This document shows positions 1-57,800 of a stretch of DNA of 64,000 nt, piece after piece. Made by a program: the position numbers and the translations under genes. Location of the stretch: contig CM034548.1 of assembly GCA_020055645.1 (NCBI GenBank), positions 48,104,296 through 48,168,295 of the forward strand. Direction: 5' to 3'. The notes below the pieces were generated by a model. The model worked only from the letters and a program-made list of their open reading frames with translations, was not told the origin of the DNA and made no database searches. Position 1 is the stretch's first letter. Every line of letters begins with the position of its first letter. The DNA comes from Tomocerus qinae. Taxonomy: Eukaryota > Arthropoda > Collembola > Entomobryomorpha > Tomoceridae.

Positions 1-576
1 CGCCAAAATTTTTGTTAATGGCTTGCTCGGCTCGTCTCGCCAAAAATTTTTTTGAGGGTCTGGCTCGGCTCTGACCTAAACTAGCATGTGTGGTTGGAGT
101 TCGATTCTCTGGCAAAGCTGTTTATTATAATCTCAGTACGGAAGCGTACTAAGAGTTGTATTATAATGTACTTGACTTGAGTACGTTTGCGCTAACGTCA
201 AATACGCAAATTTATATCAATAAAATGGGAATGTAGCGATATTGTTCAATACGCATGCTGTACTCAATATAAATGGGGAATGCACTAGTCCCAAAATTAA
301 ATACATACTATACGTATTCACTATTGAATACATTAGTGTACGCATTTTTCTGTGTGAGTCAAAATGCACAGGAGGCAATGTAATCCATGTGACATAAAAC
401 AATGAACTTTTTGACGCGTAATTCTTCTGAACTTCAATAGCATCTTTAGTTTAATTATCAACACTAAGTACTTACTTTTTTAACTGTACAATACTACAGT
501 TTAAATTGTTTTTCAAATAGGTAAATTATTAGAAATCTAAACGTTAAGATAAATATTATGTATGAACGGAACATTA
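1..576. other. Intergenic, no gene seen
   Basis: AT-rich sequence with a few short self-similar motifs at the extreme left, where a GGCTCG-rich motif occurs twice within the first 80 bases. The open frames here are short and have no recognisable protein features. I see no RNA gene. Confidence 0.5.
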
Positions 577-1430
577 ATTGGCATACGCTCTGTAGCATAA
601 AATGAAAAATCCTCTTGTTGGCATAAAAATCCCCACATTGGCATAAAGTTTTCTCCCCATAAAGGCATAAAATTATGTTTCGCTATTTTGCATATAAACT
701 ATATATAGCAAGTGAGACCAAGGTGAGTGACTAGATTAGGAATTCTATGCTATAAATGAATTTACATTTTTGAAATATGAATATCATGCTAATCGCTACA
801 AAGTTCTAGTTACTTCTTTGAAAAGAATGTTCCGTTACTTCTCTAGTCGTTAGTTCTATTCCAACAATGGTCGAATATTTTTTTCTCAAATTAAAAATAA
901 AATTACTGAACAGTTAGCCAGGAGTGGTTACGTGTATCAAGCACGTATTTAGTAGGGGGCGCAGCGCCCCCCTAAATCTGAGAAAAAAAGATTTTTTTTC
1001 TCAAAAATGGCCTAAAATTGCAAAAATTTTTCGCGTTTCGCGAGAATATGTCTCCTTTTTGCTTCCGCCCCCTTTGAACAAATTTCTAGATACGTGCCTG
1101 ACGTGTATACTAAGCGTTATATTTACAAGGGTTCCAACTATATTGGGTCAGAAACATCTACTATTTGACAAAATACACTCATAAAAGTTGTTAAAATCCG
1201 TTCAAGATTGAGCTATTCCAAGTGGATTTATACTCAAGCAGATAAGATTTGAATTATGATAATTACTATACTTCAATAGTTTATAATTGACATTGCCATA
1301 CACATTCCATTCACATATTACTCATTTTATGCCTAAAATAATTATTTGACTAAGTAAAATTTATGCCAATAAATTCTGCCAATAAGGGTGTCTGAAAAAA
1401 ATTATTTTATGCCACAGAGCGCATGCCAAT
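577..1430. mobile_element. Non-autonomous TIR element with a nested hAT MITE
   Basis: The two ends are inverted repeats: ATTGGCATACGCTCTGTAGC at the left and its imperfect complement ending ATGCCAAT at the right. TA lies on both outer sides, so the target duplication could be TA. Several further TTGGCATAAA motifs form a subterminal cluster inside each end. No transposase frame is visible. A separate hAT-type MITE with its own target duplication sits inside at 938-1100, so this element is the older of the two. Confidence 0.6.
938..1100. mobile_element. hAT-type MITE, CAGGCACGTATCCAG family, copy 1
   Basis: The element starts CAAGCACGTATTTAG and ends CTAGATACGTGCCTG. It is flanked by a perfect 8-bp duplication, ACGTGTAT, at 930-937 and 1101-1108. 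Terminal CA(A/G)G and an 8-bp duplication are hallmarks of the hAT superfamily. At 163 bp it is non-autonomous. It carries G- and C-runs just inside the ends, as do the other copies in this window. Confidence 0.85.
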
Positions 1431-1759
1431 TAGGGGGTGATTCGAATGAACATGTCCAAATCACTGTGACATTTCTTCAAAATTCATAGAGCACAGCCGT
1501 AACAGTAACATATTATATGCAATTCTACACCCATTCTTCCACAAACAGTATAAAAAGGGGCGATGTCGTTAGTGTCGTTAGTCTAATCAACATTCATCAA
1601 ATCATTGGCTAGTGTTGATTAACACTTATTATTATTAGCTCAATATATTATGCCAGTCTAATGGGACTAGATGTGACAACAGGATTGTAAGAAGACAAAA
1701 GGGGCAATATTATAAAGATGTATTAGTACTTGTCACTTACTAGTGCTTAATGAATTTGC

Positions 1760-2047
1760 ATCGAAAAATTAGAATGCCAATGTGTTCTTAATCTATGTCA
1801 TGCAATTGTTTATCATAACTGTCCTGATTATTTCTATGATTATGTGCAAAAGAAAGACAACGTAACGCAATATGCTTTAAGAAATAAAAGCTCTATTTTC
1901 TACAGTTCTATTCCAAAGAATAGGTATGGATTCCGATCCTTCCAGGAGTCAGCATCCAAATTGTGGAATGAATTACCAGAATTCATGCAAACAATTGAAA
2001 ATGCGGACTCTTTCAAGAGGGAGCTGAAGACATATCTACTTAGGTAG
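1760..2047 (+). pseudogene. LINE (non-LTR retrotransposon) C-terminal remnant
   Basis: An open frame ending at 2047 encodes the C-terminal tail typical of non-LTR retrotransposon reverse-transcriptase proteins. The key signature is RSFQESASKLWNELPEF followed by SFKRELKTYLLR and a stop. The same frame stays open upstream to about 1760 without an ATG. The RT catalytic core is absent, so this is a 5'-truncated dead copy. The clade (CR1- or jockey-like) cannot be fixed from the tail alone. Confidence 0.65.
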
Positions 2048-2649
2048 TACTATGTAATGAAGAAAGAAAAGCAAATACATGTAATTTATCATGCATTGAA
2101 TCTGCTGTCCACACTAAGGAATAATGATTATAACTATCTATCTAATAAAAAGTTAAGGAAGAAGTTTGCATTTGGGTGATGTCCCTAAAATGAGCAACGC
2201 GCAAGTGCGTGTATCCTATGTATTTACCAACTTCAAGTTTCAAAATAAAACTTCTTCTGTGTTAAGATGTGTTACGAAATATGTATTTCAATTTCCACGA
2301 TTCTCGAATGTGCGAGGTGCTACGTGTTCGGCGGTTCTGCTATATGGTGTATGAGTACGTATTCCTCATTTGAGCCGGGCTCTGTACTCATGGTTTTAGA
2401 ATAGATGCAAAAGGAGCAGAAAGCATGTCCAAAAAGCAACAAAAATTAAGTCCAAAAAAATCCCTAAATCCATGGGTCGTTTCTACAGGCTGGGGGGCTT
2501 TCAACTTTGGATGCAGATTACAGCCGAACCCTTTGAGCTACGAAGTCGAATTTTTTTCAAAAATAAGAGAAAATAAATCCTGACACCGGCAAGAAACAAA
2601 TTTAAAAATGTGGTATTTCATTGTTCCCTGTATTTGATAATACGATCTA
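2048..2649. other. Non-coding, probable LINE 3' flank
   Basis: No coding signal was found. The stretch directly after the LINE tail may include its 3' untranslated region, but no poly-A or simple 3' repeat terminus was recognised. Confidence 0.35.
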
Positions 2650-3286
2650 CTGTTATTATTTTGGTTTAGGAAAATATCAGAAAGCTAAATGGTGATTGAA
2701 TAGAAATGATTGGCGAAAGGGGAAATTCCGTAATGTGCGTATTAAATAGCGTTTCAAAATTTCTAATCCAAATTGGTTCTGCTATACCTACAAACTTATT
2801 CAACATTTTTTAGTAGAGCTGGGTTTACTTTTTACTACCCGCTTGATTCCTTTGTTCCAGTTGGGACATCTTTTTGTAGAATTAAATAACAGTACTGGGT
2901 ATTTATTCTTTAAAAATATTTATTCGTAAGTTGTACTCATGAAATTTGTACGTTTTTCCAAAATCCCACGGGGAATCTTATTTTTTCTGATTTTAAAAGG
3001 GAGCTTTATGGTAACTTTTTTCGAAAATAGAGTCTTTCATTGTTCCCTCTATTTGATGATACGATCTACAGTTATTATTTTGGTGTAGGTAATTCCTTTT
3101 GATAAGGAAGTTGGGGCTGTTGTTAATTTTTCCCACCACTGTAGAAAATAAAAGTATATTAATTTAAATATATTTTGTATTTACAAAGTTAACTACCCTA
3201 ATGGGATGTTTTTGAAATTGTTTTTATTACTGTGATGCTGAAATTCTCTTGAGTGCTAGATTTGCCCCTTAGCTGGGTTCACTAGT
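2650..3286 (+). repeat. Dispersed repeat R1, copy 1
   Basis: This copy shares long stretches with 22520-23014 and with the reverse complements of 27285-27690 and 45272-45895. Shared landmarks are ATACGATCTACAGTTATTAT, a TTATTCGTAAGTTGTACTCA stretch and a common terminus TTAGCTGGGTTCACTAGT. There are no obvious terminal inverted repeats and no coding capacity. The fixed 3' end with CTAGT could fit a Helitron-like element, but no diagnostic hairpin was found. Confidence 0.6.
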
Positions 3287-6200
3287 TAATTAATAAGTAA
3301 TCTGTAACGATGTTAAAAATTAAATATGTAATGCACTGCATTGTAATACTTTGTAAAATTGTATATCAACATAAAAGCTCAATTGGATTGTAAATATCGT
3401 TTGTTTTATAATCTGCAGATGTTGACGAATAAAATATTATTATTATTATTAATGCCAATATGAGTAATGAGACCGAATGAGAAACGGTGGTGGGTGGATA
3501 TGGACATCATGGCATCCTCACTGGCTCTGTATGCACTACTTGGCTGAGACATCGCTAAGATACTATTATATAGGCAGTTGTCAATCGAGGTACAGAACTG
3601 AATCGGATTGCTATGTTACATGACCTGGATTGGTTGATTGGTTTCGGAAGCTTTAGCTAATTATGGCCACTTTTTGTGTGCCGTGCAGGGCTTCAAATGT
3701 GAACAAATGCGAGGATCGACTTAATACTAAATTGTAACAAAACTGTACTTTACTATATTGTAAATAATGGGGTTGATATAGGGGATTCGACATCGAAATG
3801 TATTCCACCGCATCCATTTGATTACAAGGCGAGTAACTACCCGTAAAACCAAACAATCAAGAAAGACTAACCACATAACGGAGGAAGTATTTTCTTGCCG
3901 CAGCACGATTTTGTTGCTTAATTTAAAGAGAACAAAAAAACAAATGCCACGGAAAGTCTTACTGTATTAGTTATCTGACAGGAACTGCTATTATCATATC
4001 TTTTAAATAAATAGCTTGGAAAACAAAACCGTGGCCAAAGACAATGCAAGATATTTTACACCAAAAGAGATATTCGAAAATAAAATAATGTTATGTAGAT
4101 AAGGAATTTCATACTCAGGTACTCAGTACTTGTCCAGGATAGTATAAGTAAGCAATCCAACAAAATATTTAATTAACACCTTTCACAGAATTTTCATTTT
4201 TGCCTTACATTGACCACAGAATACATAACATCCTCCACCGTTTTTGCGCGGCATTTACACTGTACTCGATATTCTGTGCAGGATATATCCTGATATTTTC
4301 CTGTATTGACATTTTCAGTGTTGTATTTTAGCCGGTTAAAATGACTGAAATGACTTAATTATGGCTACAATAACTAAAAACTCGTGATTTTTGAATTTCC
4401 CGCCGAATCGAGAATGCTTTTCTTTTTCAGAGTCTCTTTTGACCATTTAAACCATGCTAACCATTTTAGCCACTGGCTAACAAAAATTTTAATTAGCCGG
4501 GTAGAAATTTAACCGGCCATTTTAACTCGCTCAGGCATCGAAACTCTCTTTCAACCTGGTAGCTGTGGAAATCGGCCTTCGCCCGCCCCCAAAGTAGGAG
4601 GAGTTTAGGTGTTCTCAGCCACAGGGGTGTGGCTAGTGGGCGGAGCTAAAGTGTGGAAATTAGCCAGTGGGCTGGGCTTGTTACACTGGAAATTAAAATG
4701 TTTTCGATGCCGCCGCTAGCCGAGTGGTCATCGAACACTGATTGGGCCTCAAGTCATTGGATCCGCTATCCGTCATTCGAATGAAATGAAAAGGATCTCT
4801 TAATCTTCGGGTGGGGGGAGGCTCGTCAAAACATTATAATTTGAAATTAGACTATATTAACCCGATCGATACATTTTAGCATTTTGAAACAAAAATTTCT
4901 TCGTTTCGAGAAACCCCCTGCATTGTTATAAGGACCTCTATTTCGCAGCGGAAAAGGCGGATAGATTTCCTAATTATTTGGATGTACCCAACCCATCGCT
5001 AAGCCATCTAAAATCTAGGTTTATAGTGGGAGAGTTTTTGGTCTAACACTCTGTGCGAGAGTTAATGTTATTGGTAATCTGATTCAATGAGACATATATT
5101 ATGTAGTAGGAGGCGCCAATTAATTCAAAAGCTGAACGGTAGGTTTTAATTGTATTTGGAAATGTCGCTGTTGTATCTCCATACTATCGTCGTCCCATCC
5201 ACACTATTACTCTTCCAGATTAACCTATTACCTATATCTATCTTCCTTGGATGTACCTAACTGAAAATCTCAAGGTATTGTGTATAACAAGAATTCTTCA
5301 AAATGGGATCATTGTGACAAAAGAGTCCGTAGTGTTTTGTCATGCAGAAGTCTTACATGCATACTCACAGACCCAGCAGACGCTATGTTAGTTAAGGTAA
5401 GACTACTACTTAGAGCATTCTTTCATCTGATATCCTAGTGAAATTTCCTTATGCCACAAAAGGTTGGAACGTTGGATTGGAACACCAAGACTGCCATACC
5501 GTAGCTCTAAGTTTACAGGGCATTGTGAAACTTTAATTCCTGCTGGTAGTTCATTCCATCGTTTCTGAATGTCATTAAGCTGCAGCAGAAAATTAAATGC
5601 TGAAATCAGTAATCCAGCAGGTTATATCACTTGACATTTCAAATTTTAAAGATAATAGTCTCCAAGCTTTTCAAGCTTTTGTAAAATAAAGTAATAAAAT
5701 TGATTGAATTTAAAGAAAAATTTTATTATGAGTTTAACAAGTTATTCTAGTTGATATAACAAAGTGTAAAGTGCTATTAAAGTTGCAGCATCTAGTAAGT
5801 AAGAGTAAGTAAGTTATTATAGACTACTGTCGTGCTTTATAGTAAGCTTAAAAACATTCAACCAGTTAGTCAATCAAGAACAAGAAGATAAGAAAGAAAA
5901 GACACTTTGCTGAACTGAAAAAGTTTTCAATTTTTTATGTAGGTGTTCAATCGGTTTTACTTGCTACTCCGTACATTTTAATCCGCATTTTGCGTCCTCT
6001 ACATATTGTCAGTGATAAATCAAAAATTGGACAGTCATGAACTTCTCCGTATCACATCGCGTCGCATTCGTTTTCAATTTGCTACTTCACCTTATAATAC
6101 AAATCGGTACATTTTAATTTTTGGTGAAAGCCATTCGTTATAATCTGCAAGGTGGTGCACGGCTGAGGTGGCTGAGGCCCTGTAGTGATTGAAGAACAAG

Positions 6201-7029
6201 TAGTGCAGTGTAGGCAAGTGACAAACATCATTCGAAATAGCGTTCGAAGTTACAATAAAAAAGCTAACTTCCATCATCAAATTTACATGAAGTGGTTCAA
6301 AAAATAACCCCGAAAATAAAAAGTGGAAAAACGTGTACTGCCGAGATTTAGCCCGGTAGATTGCAACCGAAAATAAGATACTCCATTTTAGTTGCCATAA
6401 TTGAGAAATGTTGGATGACAATAGATTGTAATTGAAGATAAAAATCACCATTCCTGACCACCAAAATATTTTTTTTAAATAAAAGTTTCACAACCCAATT
6501 TCAAGAACTCTTTTGGCAAATTGGTGGTTAATTTTCCAACCTTCTTCAAGTATGATGTCTAAACATTTTCCACTTTTTATTTTCGATGATTTTTTTGAAC
6601 TTCTTACTGTCAATTGAAATTAATGAAAGTTGCCTCATTAATGTAACTTTGGACGGTATTTCTAATGGTGTATCTTAGCCTACCACTGCACTACTTCCCT
6701 TATTCAGATACAGAAGGCCACCTTAGTTAGGCAAGACCATGTACATAATAATAAAGGATCGTAATTAAGAAATTCCTAAATCAGTGTACAAAATTTGCCT
6801 ATTTTCAGAGTTTCTTACCACTACAGTGGTATCAACTAATTGGTACAGAATAGTACACACAAAAAATATTAAAATGAGTTTAAATTCTCGATTTTCTCTG
6901 AAAATATTTTATATCAAATGAATATTTATACTTGAATGTTTACTGAAAGTAGTGGAAAAAATTCATTCATTCTGTAAATAAACCATGTCCAAATGGGTGT
7001 AAAAAAGTGATGTGAAATTGCATAGAATG
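3287..7029. other. Intergenic, no gene seen
   Basis: AT-rich stretch with only short open frames. The longest minus-strand frame (6092-6451) is hydrophobic, has no recognisable domain and lacks exon-like neighbours. Around 4550-4690 the sequence is more GC-rich with GGGCGGAGC-type motifs. A tRNA-like segment at 4711-4785 is listed separately. Confidence 0.4.
4711..4785 (+). other. tRNA-like A-box/B-box remnant (possible SINE head)
   Basis: TAGCCGAGTGGTC at about 4717 matches the polymerase III A-box/D-arm of Leu/Ser-type tRNAs. A weak B-box, ATTCGAATG, follows about 60 bases later. The 3' half of an acceptor stem cannot be paired to the 5' part and the T-loop is imperfect. This looks like a tRNA pseudogene or the head of a tRNA-derived SINE, not a working tRNA. 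Confidence 0.35.
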
Positions 7030-7640
7030 TTTTATCTGGTTATCTGACGTTACATGACGCTTTTGGTGAATTTTTTTAATGACTTTGACCTTTTGTCATG
7101 TGTGACTTGACCTTGACATGACCTAGCGAATAACCTTTTTGAACGAGCTATCTCATGGCGTTCTACAATGTCGATAAATAAAGTTACGCCAATTTTTAAT
7201 TTTTGGACCACGCCCACAGGCAGGGGGTGTATCCGATTTTATCCATTTTCGAACTCGACCTCTCTTTTCATCCCTACATCACGTACAGAAAGTTTGAAAA
7301 ATTATCTGATGTTAAATGACGATTTTAGTAATGTTTTAAAATGGCCTTTGACCTTTTGACACATGTGACTTGACCTTGACATGACCTAACGAATAACCTT
7401 TTGGAACGAGCTATCTCATGACGTTCTACAATGTCGATAACTAAAGTTACACCAATTTTATTTTTGGACCACGCCCACAGGCAGGGGGTGTGTCCGATTT
7501 TATCCATTTTTGAACTCGGCCTCTCTTTTCATCCCTATATCGCGTACAGAAAGTTTGAGTTGATTATCTCAAACAGTTTTTGAGTTATCGTGCTAACAGA
7601 CGGACAGACAGACAGGCAGATCGGGCATTCCTATAAAGCG
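7030..7640 (+). repeat. Dispersed repeat R2, tandem dimer
   Basis: Two successive units of about 265-280 bases begin near 7037 and 7301. They share CTTGACCTTGACATGACCTA, GAGCTATCTCATG, CCACGCCCACAGGCAGGGGG and CATCCCTA...CGTACAGAAAGTTTGA. The second unit continues into an ACAGACGGACAGACAGACAG tail. Degenerate copies lie at 19960-20270 (+) and 23505-23800 (-). No coding signal. Confidence 0.65.
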
Positions 7641-7908
7641 ATGTTGCACACCACTTAATAAGGGATAGGGATAATGGTATTTTGTTCACTGTCCTAAATA
7701 TGTAAAGTAGCCAATACAACTAGAAAGAGAGATGAATCATACAAATAGGTTTGTTATGATGTTAAATATTAACCCCAATGAACAAAATTTACCACTTTTA
7801 GATTTTTAAACATCACCGTGATAAGAAATTAGCTTATATGGTGAAAATGAGTGCAATGGTAATTGTATTTTGTACACTGATTAACCAACAAAGATTAACA
7901 TTAATAGT

Positions 7909-8089
7909 CAAGCACGTATCCAGTAGGGGGCAGGTGGTCGCAGCGTCCCCCCTGTATGTGAGAAAAAGAGAAGTCTTTTCCCAAAAAGGGTCAAAAGTCG
8001 AAGAAAGTTTTTGCACTTCGCGCGTGACGATATTGAGTTTTTGACCATAATTATTTGTCCCCCTTGACCAATTTCTGGATACGTGCCTG
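7909..8089. mobile_element. hAT-type MITE, CAGGCACGTATCCAG family, copy 2
   Basis: The element begins CAAGCACGTATCCAG and ends CTGGATACGTGCCTG, a clear inverted repeat. Flanks TTAATAGT and TTAGTATT match at 6 of 8 positions, so they are a decayed 8-bp target duplication. It lies 131 bases before the predicted catalase exon, so any upstream catalase exon must be to its left, or the promoter region was disturbed by this insertion. Confidence 0.8.
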
Positions 8090-8220
8090 TTAGTATTTAA
8101 TACAATTAACTTACACCTGTTCATGTAATTTTTTTCTTTTTATGTGCATTGTAAAGAAATTCTAAAGGCTCTTTGAATAGCATGTACATGTGTATTATTT
8201 ATTCCACCAATCCACCATAG

Positions 8221-9737
8221 AAGTGATTGAACTGACTACTACTCGGGCTGAAGATCAATTACCATTCTGGCGGTTAAACAATAAGAACTTTGGGGAGCGG
8301 GCCACAAATCAGAATGGTTGTCCAGTTCCCAGTTTGACATCGACACTTCGTGTCGGGCGACGAGGACCTCTCCTTCTGCAAGACTCGAACTATTTGGACC
8401 ATTTGGCCCACTTTGACCGTGAGAGAATTCCGGAGCGAGTTGTGCACGCGAAGGGAGCGGGGGCTTTTGGTTATTTTGAAGTAACGCACGACATTCGCCA
8501 TTTGACACGAGCCAGAGTTTTTGAAGCTGTGGGGAAGACGACGTCGGTTGTGGTGAGGATGTCGACTTCTATCGGGGAAAGCGGATCTGCAGACACTGTC
8601 CGGGACGTGCGGGGCTTCTCCGTTAAATTTTACACTGAAGATGGCAACTGGGATTTGGTAGGGTTCAATATCGAAAATTTTGCCATTCGCGATCCCATCC
8701 TATTTCCCAGTTTCATCCACACACGGAAACGGAACCCAGTAACACACTTGCGAGATCCAAATATGTTTTGGGACTTTTTAAGTCTCCGTCCCGAGTCAAC
8801 TCTGAACACATTGTTTACCTTCTCGGATCGTGGGATCCCGGACGGATTTCGTCACATGCATGGTTTCGGAATTCATGCATTCAAATTAGTGAGCCAAGAG
8901 GGAATTCCCACATTTGTGAAATTTCAATGGCTCACCGACCAAGGACTCAAAGTTTTGTTTCAAGACGAAGCGGATCAGATCGCGGGGACTGACCCGGATT
9001 ACGCCGTGAGAGATCTCTTCAACGCAATAGCAGACGGAAATTTTCCGTCGTGGACTTTGGCTGTGCAAGTGATGAGTGCAGAGGAGGCTGAGAATCTCCC
9101 TTACGATCCATTTGACTTAACCAGAGTCTGGTTGTTAAGCGACTACCCTTTGCTCAAAGTCGGCAAGCTTGTTCTCAATCGGAATCCCAGTGATTATTTT
9201 ACGGAGGTGGAACAGGCTATCTTCCACCCAGGTAATCTCGTTCCAGGAATTGAGCCTTCTCCAGACCTGGTTTTACAAGGCAGAATATTTTCATACTCCG
9301 ACACTCAGCGCTATCGTCTAGGAGCTAATTTCCAGCAACTACCTGTCAACAAACCACTGGCAAGAGTAGCCACATACGAGCGAGATGGGTCGAATTGTTT
9401 CTCGGACAACGGAGCTGGGAGTCCAAACTACTTCCCCAACAGTTTCGGTGGCCCAGTTGAAGATTTTGAGGCCAGACAATTGTCCTTCAAAGCAGGAGGC
9501 ATGGTTAAGCGTTTCCAAGACCATGATGACGATTTTTATTCCCAAGCGACGCTTTACTGGGAGAAGGCTTTAACTGACGATGAACGCAGTCGTCTTGTAC
9601 AGAACATTGCCTTAGATCTAAGTGCTGTAATAGAGGAAATCAGACTCAGAGCTCTGGAAAACCTTTTTGATCCAGTCAGCTCACAGCTGGGCAACATGCT
9701 TAGGGAATCCATACAAAATATGCTAACCAAAAAATAA
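8221..9737 (+). CDS. Catalase-like heme protein with altered distal Asn (5' exon missing)
   Basis: The frame aligns without gaps to animal catalases from about human residue 20 to beyond the heme Tyr. Residue numbers here count from 8190. Present: distal His86 in RVVHAKGAGAFGYFEV, the SGSADTVRD and DGNWDLVG blocks, FPSFIH, SDRGIPDG, and the proximal RxxxY (Tyr369, codon 9294-9296) in GRIFSYSDTQRYRLG. Altered: the residue equal to human Asn148 is Phe (codon 8664-8666). NADPH-site positions His194, Asn213, Lys237 and His305 are Leu, His, Leu and Leu. The C-terminus ends LTKK, with no obvious peroxisomal signal. The frame opens after a stop at 8178-8180 and its first in-frame ATG lies beyond the catalytic His. 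An upstream exon spliced to the AG at 8219-8220 is therefore likely. The exon has no introns and looks GC-richer than its flanks. Family assignment is secure; enzyme activity is doubtful. Confidence 0.93.
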
Positions 9738-11482: not shown

Positions 11483-11505
11483 TAGCAGGGCTCCTACTTC
11501 CATTT

Positions 11506-13785
11506 TCACCGAAAGTGTCACCGACCCCCTCCGATTACGACCAAAATCGCTGAGCATATGTCTAAAATAGAGTAATTAACGAAATGGACCTTCAAAATTT
11601 TTTAAAAAATAAGAGGGGGCGTGGGGGGTAAGGGGAAGCTTTTCCATTGGGAAGAAAGATTGTGACCAAACGGTAAGTCATAAAATTCTCTAGTTTTTTT
11701 CTAAAATAGCATAGATAGGTGCTTCATCCTGGCAAGGTATAAATTTTATTCAATTCGAATATTTTGGCGCGAAAAAAAATCGGTGAGCCTGAAATTAGCA
11801 ATAATTCAAACATTGCGGGTTGAAAATGGCACATATCGACTAAATATTGAATATACAAGATGCTAGATCATCTAAAATCTCTTTTCTAAGCAAGAACAAG
11901 GTTGCATATCCAAAATTTATTTACCCCTGTACGGGGAAGCGGGGGCGATATAAGTTTGGATATTTAATTTCTCAAAACCTATTACGCCTAGAACATTTAA
12001 ACCACCGCCAAACAACTCAGCATCATGTAATACATCATGGCATGGTGGTATATTGTGTGTCGCCCCACCCCCTTGTGGGGGTGTAGGTGAGGCTTAAGTT
12101 TGGAAACCCAATATGTCCAAAACTACTCAACGTACGGACTTGAAACTACCGCCAATCAACTCAGCATCATGTAATGCATCATGGCATGGTAGTATATTGT
12201 GTGTCGCCCAACCCCCTGAGGGGGGTGTCGGGGAGGCTTAAGTTTGGAAACCCAATATCTCCAAAACTACTCAACGTACGGACTTGAAACTACCGCCAAT
12301 CAACTCAGTATCATGTAATACATCATGGCATGGTAGTATATTGTGTGTTGCCCCACCCCCTGAGGGGGGTGTCGGGGAGGCTTAAGTTTGGAAACCCAAT
12401 ATCTCCAAAACTACTCAACGTAGGGACTTGAAACTACCGCCAATCAACTCAACATCATGTGATGCATCGTGGCATGGTAGTAGATTGTGTGCTTCCTCAC
12501 CCCCTTGTGGGGGTGTAGGGGAGGCTTAAGTTTGGAAACCCAATATCTCCAAAACTACTCAACATAGGGACTTGAAACTACCGCCAATCAACTCAAAATC
12601 ATGTAATGCATCATGACATGGTTGCAGGGTAGCCCTCAAGGGGTGTGGTGACACACAATATGCTACCATGCCACGATGCATCACATGATGTTGAGTTGAT
12701 TGGCAATAATCAAGTCCCTACGTTGAGTAGTTTTGGAGATATTGGGTTTCCAAACTTAAGCCTCCCTACACCCCCACAAGGGGAGTGAAGCACACAATCT
12801 ACTACCATGCCACGCCCATCACATGATGTTGAGTTGATTGGCGACCGAGTTTCAAGTCCCTACGTTGAGTAGTTTTGGAGATATTGGGTTTCCAAACTTA
12901 AGCCTCCCTACACCCCCACAAGGGGGTGAGGAAGCACACAGTATGCTACCATGCCATGATGTATTACATGATACTGAGTTGATTGGCGGTAGTTTCAAGG
13001 TCCGTACGTTGAGTAGTTTTGGAGATATTGGGTTTCCAAACTTAAGCCTCCCCGACACCCCCCTCAGGGGGTTGGGCGACACACAATATACTACCATGCC
13101 ATGATGCATTACATGATGCTGAGTTGATTGGCGGTAGTTTCAAGTCCGTACGTTGAGTAGTTTTGGACATATTGGGTTTCCAAACTTAAGCCTCCTCTCT
13201 AGGCCCCCTCAGGGGGTGGGGCGACACACAATATACCACCATGCCATGATGTATTACATGATGCTGAGTTATTTGGCAGTGATGTTTAATGGTTCTAGGC
13301 GTAATAGGGAATTTTGAGAAATTAAATATCAAACTTATATCGCCCCCTTCGCCCATGCGTACAGAGGTAAATAAATTTTGGATATGCAACCTTGTTCTTG
13401 CTTAGAAAAGAGATTTTAGATGATCTAGCATCTTGTATATTCAATATTTAGTCGATATGTGCCATTTTCAACCCGCAATGTTTGAATTATTGCTAATTTC
13501 AGGCTCACCGATTTTTTTTCGCGCCAAAATATTCGAATTGAATAAAATTTATACCTTGCCAGGATGAAGCACCTATCTATGCTATTTTAGAAAAAAACTA
13601 GAGAATTTTATGACTTACCGTTTGGTCACAATCTTTCTTCCCAATGGAAAAGCTTCCCCTTACCCCCCACGCCCCCTCTTATTTTTTAAAAAATTTTGAA
13701 GGTCCATTTCGTTAATTACTCTATTTTAGACATATGCTCAGCGATTTTGGTCGTAATCGGAGGGGGTCGGTGACACTTTCGGTGA
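11506..13785. repeat. Giant palindrome C, about 1.13 kb arms
   Basis: The left arm starts TCACCGAAAGTGTCACCGAC and the right arm ends with its exact complement at 13785. The centre is near 12645. Each arm carries four to five tandem units of about 144 bases containing CTACTCAACGTA, GGCTTAAGTTTGGAAACCCA and AACTCAGCATCATG. Arms differ by scattered substitutions and small indels, so they are old or only partly homogenised. Short open frames here are shadows of the repeat. Confidence 0.85.
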
Positions 13786-13970
13786 TAACGAATACACGGG
13801 CTCAGCATCATTCATATCAATCCTTTACAACCTATCCCTCCCAGTCGGAAACCTCATGGTTCGGTACCGCTAGCGGTACAGAGCTATCCCACCCAGTCTA
13901 GCCGGAGAGGGACATTATATCCCTCCCAGTCACCTTTCCCTCCCAGTCTACGACATATATACGTTATAGG

Positions 13971-17108: not shown

Positions 17109-38623
<21,515 letters not shown>

Positions 38624-51800: not shown

Positions 51801-54800
51801 ATACGGAGACGGTAGTCGACTGGGAAGAAAATTTAAAACATATCCAGGCAGATGCTAAAGATCTGATCAAACAATTGAGGTATTCTTTTATTTATGTATT
51901 GCAAGTATGTTTGATCATCGTGACACAAATTGTATTCCACACCTGGACCTGGCTACCAAGTGGGTGGGAAAAAGTAGTATAATGTAGCAACTACACTGTA
52001 TCTTTTTGATACTTTGATAGTTTATTAATAGCCTTTCTTATGCAAATTGCAGTTCACTTAAAACCAATTCTTCTTATGCTGCACATAAGTTGATTCAAGA
52101 TAGAAATAGACACTTGTTCCAAACGAAAGTCGAACTAGACCAGCAAATTGACGATTTGCAAATGCGGTAAGTGAATCTAAGTCTTTCTTCACCAAGAATA
52201 ACTAAGTGATAATGCCATAACCCTTCACATTGTGTCATGAATTAATACTGTTTATTGTTGTCAAATTAGTTAGCAACTAGTATCTATACAAAAAAGCTAT
52301 AATCGAGGGAGACGACATTTTATCTAGATGTAATAATGGTATTTTTATTTATAAAACAGAATTTGCGCTGAAGTTCAAAAACGGTGTCTACAATTAAAAA
52401 TGACAATACGTAGAGAGGTCAGATGTGCTGCCAAAACAAGCAATTTACAAAGTGAACGCGCCTGTTCAATTGCGTTGAGAGCCTCTCAGGTGTCAAAAAT
52501 TCTGTCTGATTTAATAGACTCTAGCACTAACGCGGATCTGGTCAAAACATTTGAGTATGATTTTTAAATACTAATTTAAAAAAATTATTGCATTCTTTCA
52601 TCTGAACGTCTTTTAAAATTGGTAAATTGACTCATAAACTTTGTGTTGGATACAGTCGTTACAGAGATTGGGCTAATTGCGTAATATACTGCGCCATCGG
52701 TTGGAAATTAGATGGTAATCCTGACGTGTTCACCAATCTCGAAAAAGTTGACTTGAAATTGGAGGAAGCTAGTCCTGATAAATTAATCAATGGTACGAAT
52801 ATTTTTAGTGGCATTTACTCAGACTATGTAAAAGTGAACTAATTGACAACGTTTCTGTGCAGATGTGAGAACGCTTGGTAAACTCACAAAAGTTTTCCAC
52901 GATCCTGATAAACAAAAGCCATCTACCAGTGAAAGTGGTGATAAGACTTCTAATTCAATGACAGTAACTCTCGTAGAAATGGTAGAAGGTCTCACGGAAG
53001 CTATTATAAAGTCAATAAAAGAAACTAAACTAGTAAAAAGGCGGACAGTAACTATAAGACATGTTGAAACATCAACTAACGACGAAGTAGAAATGGTGGA
53101 TACCCAAACAGTGGCTCAATCAGCTACTCAATCCGATTCTGCAACGGTTTTGACCACGGAAAATCCTGAAGCGTGTTCCACAGAAAAAGAACACGTGGAA
53201 GTGAAGGGTGGAGTGGAGGTCTTACAAGAAGTACCAAACGAAGTAGAAATGGTCGAATCCCCTGATACCCAAGCAGCGGCTCATTCAGCTAGTCAAACCG
53301 ATTCTGCAACGGTTTTGACCACGGAAAATCCTGAAGCGTGTTCCACAGAAAAAGAATTCGTGGAAGTGAAGGGTGGAGTGGATGTCTTACAAGAATTACC
53401 AAACGAAGTAGAAATGGTCGAATCTCCTGATACCCAAACAGTGGCTCAATCAGCTACTCAATCCGATTCTGCAACGGTTTTGACCACAGAAAATCCTGAA
53501 GCGTTTTCCACAGAAAAAGAACACGTGGAAGTGAAGGGTGGAGTGGAGGTCTTACAAGAAGTACCAAAGGAAGTAGAAATGGTCAAATCCCCTGATACCC
53601 AAGCAGCTACTCAATCAGCTACTCAATCCGATTCTGCAACGGTTTTGACCACGGAAAATCCTGAAGCGTGTTCCACAGAAAAAGAACTCGTGGAAGTGAA
53701 GGGTGGAGTGGATGTCTTACAAGAAGTACCAAACGAAGTAGAAATGGTCGAATCCCCTGATACCAAAACAGTGGCTCAATCAGCTAGTCGCACCGATTCT
53801 GCAACGGTTTTGACCACAGAAAATCCTGAAGCTTGTTCCACAGAAAAAGAACACGTGGAAGTGAAGGGTGGAGTGGAGGTCTTACAAGAAGTACCAAACG
53901 AAGTAGAAATGGTCAAATCCCCTGATACCCAAGCAGCGGCTCAATCAGGTACTCACACCGGAAATCCTCAAGCGTGTTCCACTGAAATAGAACACGTGGA
54001 AGTGAAGGGTGGAGTGGAGGTCTTACAAGAAGTACCAAAGGAAGTAGAAATGGTCAAACCCCATGATACCCAAACAGCGGCTCAATCAGCTACTCAATCC
54101 GATTCTGCAACGGTTTTGACCACGGAAAATCCTGAAGCGTGTTCCACTGAAATAGAACACGTTGAAGTGAAGGGTGGAGTGGAGGTCTTACAAGAAGTAC
54201 CAAACGAAGTAGAAATGGTCAAATTCCCTGACACCCAAACAGCGGCTCAATCAGCTACTCAATCCGATTCTGCAACGGTTTTGACCACCGAAAATCCTGA
54301 AGCGTGTTCCACAGAAAAAGAACACGTGGAAGTGAAGGGTGGATTGGAGGTCTTACAAGAAGTACCAAACGAAGTAGAAATGGTCAAATCCCCTGATACC
54401 CAAGCAGCGGCTCAATCAGCTACTCAATACGATTCTGCAACGGTTTTGACCACCGAAAATCCTGAAGCATGTTCCACTGAAAAAGAACACGTGGAAGTGA
54501 AGGGTGGAATGGAGGTCTTACAAGAAGTACCAGAAGCACACAGAAGCGAGGTTGAAGATACCAGCGCTAACATTATTCCCATTACTTCAAGCTTGAATGC
54601 CAGTGCATTGATATTAATAACACATGCATCATCAAGCTCGAATAACAGTGGAGTAGTTGGATCTGTAACACCTAAGTCAAATTTGAGTACCAAACGACTT
54701 TACGGTACACCAGAGACTCCAAGCCAGAAAAAAGTACACTTTTCTGACAAAATTGACGTATCCGTATTTCAAAGCGAACCTGCAGAACCTCGAGAAAATA

Positions 54801-57800
54801 ATGAAACTACCGCAGAAACTGAAGAAACAGATTCTCAAAGTGACGACGAAGTAGAGGTATCCCCAGATACAAATTTCATTGCCACTGTAAGCCGTGTTAA
54901 AACCCCAACGGCCACCAAACGACCTTCTGAAGGAACAAATTCTTCGGACTGTGCACAAAAAAAGGCACATATTGAGGAAAGGCCTGAACTTACCTCAGTT
55001 CCTAAAACACCGGCTAAAAAGCCTGTAGAAGTTCTTAATAACCAATCCAAAACTACAGAAAAGGTATCTACACCATCTGCATCAACAACCACTGTCTGCC
55101 CAACAAGTCATTTTATTGATACTACAGCACAGGTCAAAAGCAATTCTCCCGAAGCCGGGTCTTCAAAGTCTTTACAAAAGATTGCAAATGTACAGAAATC
55201 ATGTGACGTTTTGTCCCTTCCGAAAACACCAGAAAACAAGGATAGCAATATTGTTGAAAAAGTGTCCGAAAGTACAGAAGATAATCTTAAATTTGTGTCC
55301 TCACTTCAAGCCCCAGAAATCGGCGTTAAAGGACTGGAAAACAACAGCACAGAGCAAAGTAAAAAGGATTCAATTCTGGTTGGTGGAGATGGAGGCAAAG
55401 AAACTATCGAATCAGTATCTGAAGCAAGCAAAATGCTTAACGAAACCTTCGACGGGGATCATTCAAAGGATATCTCTAAGAGTACTGACATGAAAGACTG
55501 TTCCCACAAGGAAAGTAGCTCTGAAGCGGACACTAGTCTATGTAGTCCGTCGCATGATCACTCCTACGTTTTGACTCCTGTCAGCAACAGGTCCCGTTTT
55601 TTATTATTTAGATATCTATAAATCCCACATATTTACTTAGTTACGCCAACTTTCAGGTTTCGGTATGCCTTCTGCAGTTGATTTTTATTGATCTTAAATC
55701 AAGATTCTTAATATGGCAATTTCATTCCTACTGTTAGAAAAAAGCCCCAAAACAATACAGTACAAATATTTATGTTAATTGAATACAAACGGTATAAAAA
55801 GTAAATATGTGGCTTCATATTTCTCCTAAAGATTCATGGTTATTCGTGCGATAAATAATTTTGTAATATTTTTGCAGGAGGCGAAAACAATCTCTGTCAG
55901 AAGTGAGAGAAGGTTGTGTTGATGATGTATATATAGATATAGGAGAAATTGAAGAGCCCAGAACTCCAGTAAGCACTGTGAGCAGTGATCCTGAAAAGCG
56001 AAAGAGAGGTCGCCCTCGTGGAAAATCTGTGCTGCAAATATCTTCGTCGAAGAGAGGACGTCCTCGAAGGAGCTCCCGTGGTACTGGCTGTTCTTCTACT
56101 GAAGCGTCGTTTGTTGAATCTATTCCTGTGACCGTAGATGAAGAGAAAAGTGCGGAGGCGGAGAGCGTTGATGTTGAACATGAAGAACCGGTTGCATCAA
56201 CATCATTTGCGGTCGTTACGCCCACGCTTAGACTGGAAGCCTCACCACAACCACCTCTTGAAAAGAGTCTGCAAGCTCAATCCAAAGCGAAGACTGAAGT
56301 CATTCCATATCGTAGTAAAAGATTGAGTCTCAAAAAACAAGGGGCGAAAGAGGACAAGAAGGATGGAAATATGTCACGTTAGTTGTTTTTTACTCTTTAA
56401 ATTATTTTGGCATGGAGGCATTGTAATAGAATTCCTCCCGCTGTGATTTTCAGAATCACCCCTGAATGAACAAATGGCCATTGAACTGACAAACTATGCT
56501 TCATTGGAGATTCTTGAAGCTAAAATGAGAATAACAGGCGACGCACAAAATGAAGATTATTGTACGATATGCTTGGATGGTGGATCACGATTAGTCTGCT
56601 GTGACCAATGTCCCAAAGTATTTCACGCTGGTTGTCACATTCCGAAACTAAAAAGAATTCCTACTGGAGCATGGAAATGTTTTATGTGTGTAAGCAAGGA
56701 GGACATGGTTGACGAATCATTGCTACCGAAGTTCAAGGATTTGTACGTCTTCAATGAGCTTTCTCCCTACTCAGATCTTAACGAGAAAACCTACTTGCTC
56801 CTCTGCAAATTCCTATGCGAATTATTCACGCAGAAAGAAAGTCTGGTGGTCAGAGCGGTTTTGGTAAAACTTTACAAGGTAATTTTATGTACTCTAAACT
56901 ATTCTTAAATTGAACGAATTATTGAATATAGGTATTTTCTTCCATAACTTTCTCAACTTCAGTAAGGAATAACTAATGAGCTATTTGTTATTTAAAAGAT
57001 GCTACAAAATTGTTATAATTTGCCATTTTTTGATTTGGCAAACATGTCAGATTTTAATTAATTAGTTAATTGGAATTTGATTATTTTACTTGCTTTTTGA
57101 CTGCAACAAGGCTCGTGGAGGTCATTTTATATTACGATATTTTATGTCGATGTATTCCTGTGGCTTTGGCCGTAAACTTTATCGTTTTCAAAGTTTGTTG
57201 CAATACGGCCAATAACTTAAAGTACAAAAATGACAGATTTCCACAAAGAATAAATACTTAATCAATGATAATATTATAATGGAAAGACTTGATCCTGAGT
57301 CATGTATCAGTAGGTTGAGCTGAGCAGAGTGAATTCAAGGACTTTTCAAGCCTCGAATGTTCTTAATTTCCATGTCGGTAATTCATGACAATTTAGTTTA
57401 TACAATTCTTAAATTTTAGGAAAAAGTTGGACGAGATCCTGTGAGTCTCTTTTTTGTGCGGGATCGTTTGATTTTGAAGAGTAATTATCCGTACGAGTCA
57501 ATCAAGGAGATGATTTTAAATCTTGAATTTATGATGTACCAAGCGAATCGACTCTTCTCTCCTATGGTAAGCAAATGCTTGTTACATAACTTGTACCAAC
57601 TAACTTTCACTGATCTAAAATATGTACCAACTAAATGTTAACTTTGTGCAGCAAGGAGATGAGCTGAAGCACTTTAAAGTCATTCAAGCATTTTATAAGC
57701 AGAAACTGATCGAGTATTTTCCTTTCACCAAGGATAAGAAACGTTACAACTACAGTAGTCATAGCGACATGGAATACAGAGCGGAGTACCGTTTCTGGCC

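Follow-up and report, generated by a model that had tools for sequence, protein, structure and literature searches.

A divergent, stop-free catalase paralog in a springtail carries phenylalanine at the position of the distal asparagine

Asn148 (human numbering is used throughout) is counted among the catalytic residues of heme catalases. The clade 3 small-subunit catalases, such as the bovine and human enzymes, are monofunctional heme catalases marked by two Pfam domains, Tyr358 with Arg354, His75, Ser114, Asn148, Arg203 with His or Gln at 305, a small residue at 217, and fast H2O2 dismutation. Section 8 of PMC9687031 assigns the NADPH site to Arg203 with His or Gln305 and describes how a small residue 217 goes together with the His-III orientation of the heme and a bulky one with the flipped, His-IV orientation. 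In section 10 of the same source, the gate valve of the fungal catalase CAT-1 is formed by two phenylalanines opposite a Val and a Leu. Catalase-related enzymes with a different substrate are found in corals, where, according to the excerpted parts of PMC5617202, they turn over fatty-acid hydroperoxides; its introduction states that the coral enzyme cAOS cannot scavenge H2O2, and its results report that wild-type cAOS of Capnella evolves oxygen. As for gene number, the survey of 19 animals in section 5 of PMC9925728 assigns one full-length catalase to most of them.

We analyzed a stretch of 64,000 nucleotides from the genome of Tomocerus qinae (referred to as the window here), which contains a divergent, stop-free animal catalase paralog in which Asn148 is replaced by Phe and the channel, the NADPH site, and the residue linked to heme orientation are also changed, while the catalytic core is kept. 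The features on which the comparison is based are the following (positions in the window).

7909..8089, no strand assigned: copy of an interspersed repeat of ∼180 bases, directly upstream of the catalase exon
8221..9737, + strand: catalase coding exon, 505 codons up to the stop codon at 9735-9737
8445..8447, + strand: distal His75 (CAC), kept
8562..8564, + strand: Ser114 (TCG), kept
8568..8570, + strand: Ser116 (V116S), seen only in the three loci without Asn148
8664..8666, + strand: Phe (TTC) at the position of human Asn148, from an in-frame, gap-free alignment
8682..8684, + strand: Ala (GCC) from F154A, by which the second gate-valve phenylalanine is gone (role from section 10 of PMC9687031)
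8871..8873, + strand: Ile (ATT) from S217I (rule from section 8 of PMC9687031)
9135..9137, + strand: Leu (TTA) from H305L (rule from section 8 of PMC9687031)
9294..9296, + strand: proximal heme ligand Tyr358 (TAC), kept

The open frame around this exon runs from 8181 to 9737 (518 codons) without a stop codon, and the splice acceptor is probably at 8219-8220, a call read from the sequence and from the N termini of the paralogs L014 and L015, not from a transcript. The frame matches the Pfam models Catalase (PF00199; 1.2e-175, residues 35-416) and Catalase-rel (PF06628; 2.8e-12), its protein is 57% identical to bovine catalase over human positions 8 to 484, and its best sequence matches in the PDB are mammalian catalases. 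There is no Met in the exon before residue 113, and a strict scan of window positions 1-8205 for a start exon yielded four phase-1 candidates, none of them convincing. A further candidate from a relaxed scan, at 7838-7922, was not adopted, as its donor end lies inside the interspersed repeat. The repeat copy itself probably sits within the first intron of the gene; sequence similar to about this stretch recurs at 39 or more further genomic sites (40 of 1,294 candidates were scored), and further repeats upstream occupy 7083-7558.

Elsewhere in the window, a perfect inverted repeat of 431 bases (11503-11933 and 13358-13788) flanks arrays of a tandem repeat of ∼144 bases; this structure, which follows closely on the catalase gene, is probably a mobile element. 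A tandem array of more than 1 kb with a 12-base unit (30255-31534) has multiple open frames, on both strands. Two other segments (37303-37692 and 56447-56905) hold exons encoding an ELM2 domain and a PHD finger and belong to ordinary animal chromatin genes, and an open frame of 924 codons (52847-55618) has no Pfam match and contains a repeated motif of the type VEMVxSPDTQxxAQSATQSDSATVLTTENPEACSTEKEHVEVKGGVEVLQEVPNE.

The first-pass annotation of this DNA had placed Phe at the position of human Asn148, and the alignment of frame 8181-9737, which reaches TTC at 8664-8666 opposite Asn148 without gaps, agrees with this. The block that it had equated with human 144-158 is one residue shorter than stated, since DLVGFNIENFAIRD has 14 residues and covers human 144-157. 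The register can be followed gap-free from bovine catalase (VGNNTPIFFIRD) through the paralogs L020 (VGNNIPNFPIRD) and L011 (VGNNIVNFPIRD) to the window protein (VGFNIENFAIRD), which retains the neighboring Asn149 and Phe153; Phe thus replaces Asn148, and the two bridging paralogs rule out a shift by an insertion or deletion. Among the other 11 catalase loci of the genome, codon 148 is AAC or AAT in nine and CTA in two, so that TTC is at least two base changes away from Asn. Asn148 is also found in bovine catalase, in L001, and in 80/80 prokaryotic loci (the best 80 of 573 relatives, a sample that favors close relatives and was drawn with two scan patterns, one of them placed a few residues ahead of 148). 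Viral contigs gave no match to the pattern Trp-Asp-Leu-Val-Gly-Phe-Asn-Ile, and a protein scan of them gave a single relative, bacterial-looking and with Asn148. Among the papers listed by literature searches that covered few subscription journals, we recognized no description of either an animal catalase without the distal Asn or an expansion of springtail catalases.

Around the replaced residue, the catalytic core is kept. As annotated earlier, His75, Ser114, and Tyr358 are retained in the alignment with bovine catalase and the paralogs, and R72, V74, R112, R354, and R365 are retained with them. The window protein thereby shares with clade 3 catalases both Pfam domains, the distal His, Ser114, the heme arginines, and Tyr358 with Arg354, but lacks Asn148, His or Gln305 (Arg203 is kept), and the small residue 217; it further differs from them in F154A, V116S, P151E, and its C terminus. 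The earlier description of an otherwise intact catalase fold is not supported for the pocket, where the last part of the substrate channel, the NADPH site, and the heme-orientation residue are altered: substitutions include V116S, A117I, P129V, T150I, P151E, F154A, Q168R, L199T, S217I, H305L, and M350V. Several of these fall on residues that do not vary in the best 80 of 573 prokaryotic relatives, where V116, P151, F153, F154, and Q168 are each found in 80/80 sequences, and the window protein departs from such residues at 116, 148, 154, and 168. Ser116 occurs in 3/3 loci without Asn148 and in 0/9 loci with it (eight Val, one Ala), an association that amounts to at most two independent cases, given that the loci are related.

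When the CAT-1 gate is mapped onto F153, F154, V116, and residue 117 by the constant offset between His92/Asn165 and human His75/Asn148, three of the four gate-valve positions are changed in the window gene, which has an extra Phe at 148. PMC9687031, in the part excerpted, reports for yeast catalase A that V111A (mapped here to V116) gives a wider channel and higher peroxidatic activity and that F149V (mapped here to F154) lowers both peroxidatic and catalatic activity, and the direction of any shift in activity is therefore unsettled. At the NADPH site, Leu305 is shared with KatA of Helicobacter pylori, for which section 8 of PMC9687031 gives no NADPH binding, and NADPH binding is predicted to be abolished in the window protein. 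Ile217 predicts a flipped (His-IV) heme, the orientation of clades 1 and 2 and unlike that of clade 3.

We searched the whole genome (334 Mb, 115 contigs) with two queries, the catalase family and the window protein, which gave 33 and 37 exon matches, respectively, both of them lower bounds. These group into at least 12 catalase loci (L010 to L021, the window gene being L010), not all of which may be intact, with L021 and some exon joins provisional; several of the matches contain stops that appear to come from reading through introns. Such a number of catalase loci, at least 12 in one genome, is unusual. The genome is arthropod-looking, with 114 Chitin_bind_4 matches versus none in 14 control genomes. 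Nine loci (L011 and L014 to L021) have Asn at residue 148, and the window gene has Phe. The remaining two, L012 and L013, have Leu; they are widely separated on contig C1, a different contig from that of the window gene. Divergence was scored on 149 columns with at least 95% conservation in the prokaryotic sample (the best 80 of 573) that are also shared by the bovine enzyme. The window protein is changed in 21 of them, compared with 2 in L016, 3 in L017, 5 in L021, 9 in L018, 15 in L020, 20 in L011, 26 in L015, 27 in L014, 28 in L019, 31 in L013, and 32 in L012. L016 and L017 look canonical and have the NADPH residues 203 and 305 intact. L019 (C1, 51049500-51056000) keeps Asn148 and carries F153H at a gate phenylalanine, F161Y at the heme-stacking phenylalanine, V73L, D128N, and P129F.

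The window gene has no near paralog; the best is L020, with 63% identity. The Leu148 loci L012 (136.75 Mb on C1) and L013 (3.29 Mb), 52 to 53% identical to the window protein, resemble it in the loss of Asn148, in Ser116, and in belonging to the same weakly supported paralog group, but they differ in having Leu instead of Phe, in keeping F154, and in having one core intron, and they carry V146T, G147T, H218N, and R203D besides Leu148.

A tree calculated without the columns around 148 joins L010, L011, L012/L013, L014/L015, and L020 in one group with a support of 93/95, and the same group has 93/93 when eight prokaryotic rows are added and columns 116-118 are also removed; both values are below the mark of the tree tool, and the inner order and deep branches of the group are unsettled. 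A split with a support of 100/100 sets bovine catalase and the 12 loci apart from the eight prokaryotic rows, which indicates an animal expansion; a bacterial origin of the window gene by horizontal transfer is unsupported, since the gene groups with the other animal catalases. Counted on the best trees, residue 148 changes twice, but a tree constrained to unite the window gene with the Leu pair, which corresponds to a single loss of Asn148, is not rejected (AU P values of 0.17 and 0.146). Phe148 does not define a clade, a point that the first-pass annotation had put forward for checking: Phe occurs in 1 of the 12 loci, and Asn is lost twice on the best trees.

The Leu148 pair has a dN of 0.067 and a dS of 0.673 over 375 codons and a dN of 0.031 and a dS of 0.523 over 115 codons, i.e., a dN/dS of about 0.06 to 0.10, which corresponds to strong purifying selection and means that a protein of the catalase type is maintained although it lacks the distal Asn. 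The window gene, compared at sites where four other loci agree, differs at 29/236 first, 32/294 second, and 30/60 third codon positions, equal to substitution rates of 0.123, 0.109, and 0.500 on its lineage, much like those of the other paralogs tested. This pattern fits coding constraint over most of the history of the gene, but expression lost only recently would leave no trace in it. Third-position GC content (0.477 for the window gene, 0.32 for L011, and 0.30 for L014) does not discriminate and was set aside as a sign of constraint. Given purifying selection on the Leu pair and codon-position constraint on the window gene, the loss of the distal Asn is not simply decay. The frame is also intact, with 505 stop-free codons and neither the disruption nor the lost constraint of a pseudogene.

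The window protein ends in -NMLTKK, which is not among the peroxisomal signals as generally known. This is weak evidence about its location, because L017 and L018 also seem to be without such a signal; L016 ends in -SNL. Candidate first exons that resemble signal-peptide exons and have a phase-1 donor precede the core of L012, L014, L015, and L020, which are four of the six other loci in the group of the window gene, suggesting that this group is probably secreted. The candidate exon of L012 was found once versus 0.11 times expected from 100 plain shuffles, and those of L014 and L015 are similar to each other; the scan found no convincing signal-peptide exon for the window gene, L011, or L013. 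In L013, the stretch that matches the signal-peptide exon of L012 lies about 300 bases before the second exon and reads ATGAGT in place of the donor GTGAGT; this copy may splice from a different donor, or its first exon may be damaged.

The reading that we consider most likely, though we hold it tentatively and at a little under even, is that the gene, a member of a probably secreted paralog group, encodes a heme enzyme with slow catalase activity whose chemistry has moved toward peroxidatic or organic-hydroperoxide turnover. Such a protein would bind heme, and peroxide would still react through His75 and the Tyr358-ligated iron to give compound I. Dismutation of H2O2 would be slow, because the Asn that positions the peroxide is missing and the Phe gate is rebuilt, with F148 in, F154 out, and Ser116 and Ile117 opposite. 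A reshaped, NADPH-free channel could then favor peroxidatic turnover or a bulkier hydroperoxide, and the enzyme would probably act outside the peroxisome, perhaps outside the cell, since some paralogs of its group have signal-peptide-like first exons. The weaker or changed dismutation suggested in the first-pass annotation is what would be expected from a loss at a catalytic Asn. By analogy, yeast F149V, which lowers both activities, speaks against a simple shift to a peroxidase. The soft-coral enzymes cAOS and cHPL offer a parallel, since their heme pocket is of the catalase type and has been modified for a different peroxide chemistry, but in the excerpts of PMC5617202 they keep the distal Asn (N137) and have Thr for the distal Val, whereas the window protein keeps Val74 and loses the Asn. 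Going by these excerpts, loss of the Asn is therefore not needed for hydroperoxide chemistry. The coral proteins are also fused to a lipoxygenase, and Pfam found no lipoxygenase domain in the window frame.

An ordinary catalase that tolerates Phe148 at a cost in rate, under demand relaxed by other copies that do the main work, would account for the retained catalytic His, Ser, and Tyr and for the presence of the canonical paralogs L016 and L017. It would also suit the work of Gao et al. 2008, which, by its title, reportedly found that mutating the distal Asn changes the rate and not the chemistry; the same title counts against the shifted chemistry of the preferred reading. We nevertheless regard it as unlikely in view of the invariance of Asn148 in the best 80 of 573 prokaryotic loci, the joint change of several channel residues, the NADPH site, and residue 217, and the purifying selection on the Leu148 pair. 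Improbable as well is a pseudoenzyme in which Phe148 fills the space above the heme and excludes peroxide, leaving a heme carrier, a sensor, or a structural partner: large hydrophobic side chains at 148 (Phe in one locus, Leu in two) and the additional loss of H218, G147, and V146 in the Leu pair would fit it, but all three loci retain His75 and Ser114, which is unexpected for an idle distal site, and F154A and V116S take away bulk nearby. Of the two options in the earlier phrase "sealed or repurposed," the second is plausible, given Leu148 paralogs under purifying selection, and the first is possible but weakened by F154A, which removes a gate Phe close to the one added at 148.

A silent or 5′-truncated gene, whose first exon was taken by transposons and whose frame was only recently freed from selection, would explain the missing start exon in window 1-8205, the repeats at 7083-7558 and 7909-8089, and the late first Met. 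We think it distinctly improbable, as 505 codons are free of stops, most catalytic residues are retained, and third positions have changed at more than four times the per-site rate of first and second positions on the window lineage, a measure that would miss a recent loss of expression. An assembly or sequencing error at 8664-8666 is scarcely credible: it would have to involve two or more substitutions whichever Asn codon was the original, the neighboring residues differ coherently (I150, E151, and A154), and parts of the pattern recur in related loci.

Taken at its strongest, the preferred reading would extend to an arthropod catalase family of secreted heme enzymes in which the Asn has been replaced in at least one and perhaps two lineages and is dispensable, and in which a hydrophobic residue 148 with a polar Ser116 serves an Asn-independent peroxide chemistry undescribed for catalases; we see this as possible but rather unlikely. 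The new functional class that had been proposed for the window gene exceeds the evidence; the catalase may have been retuned to another peroxide chemistry. Natural paralogs that have lost Asn148, of which two or more are clearly under purifying selection, would reveal further capacities of the catalase fold and offer natural material for testing separately the contributions of this Asn, of the gate phenylalanines, and of the NADPH site. With at least 12 catalase loci in one genome, neofunctionalization becomes testable within a single species.
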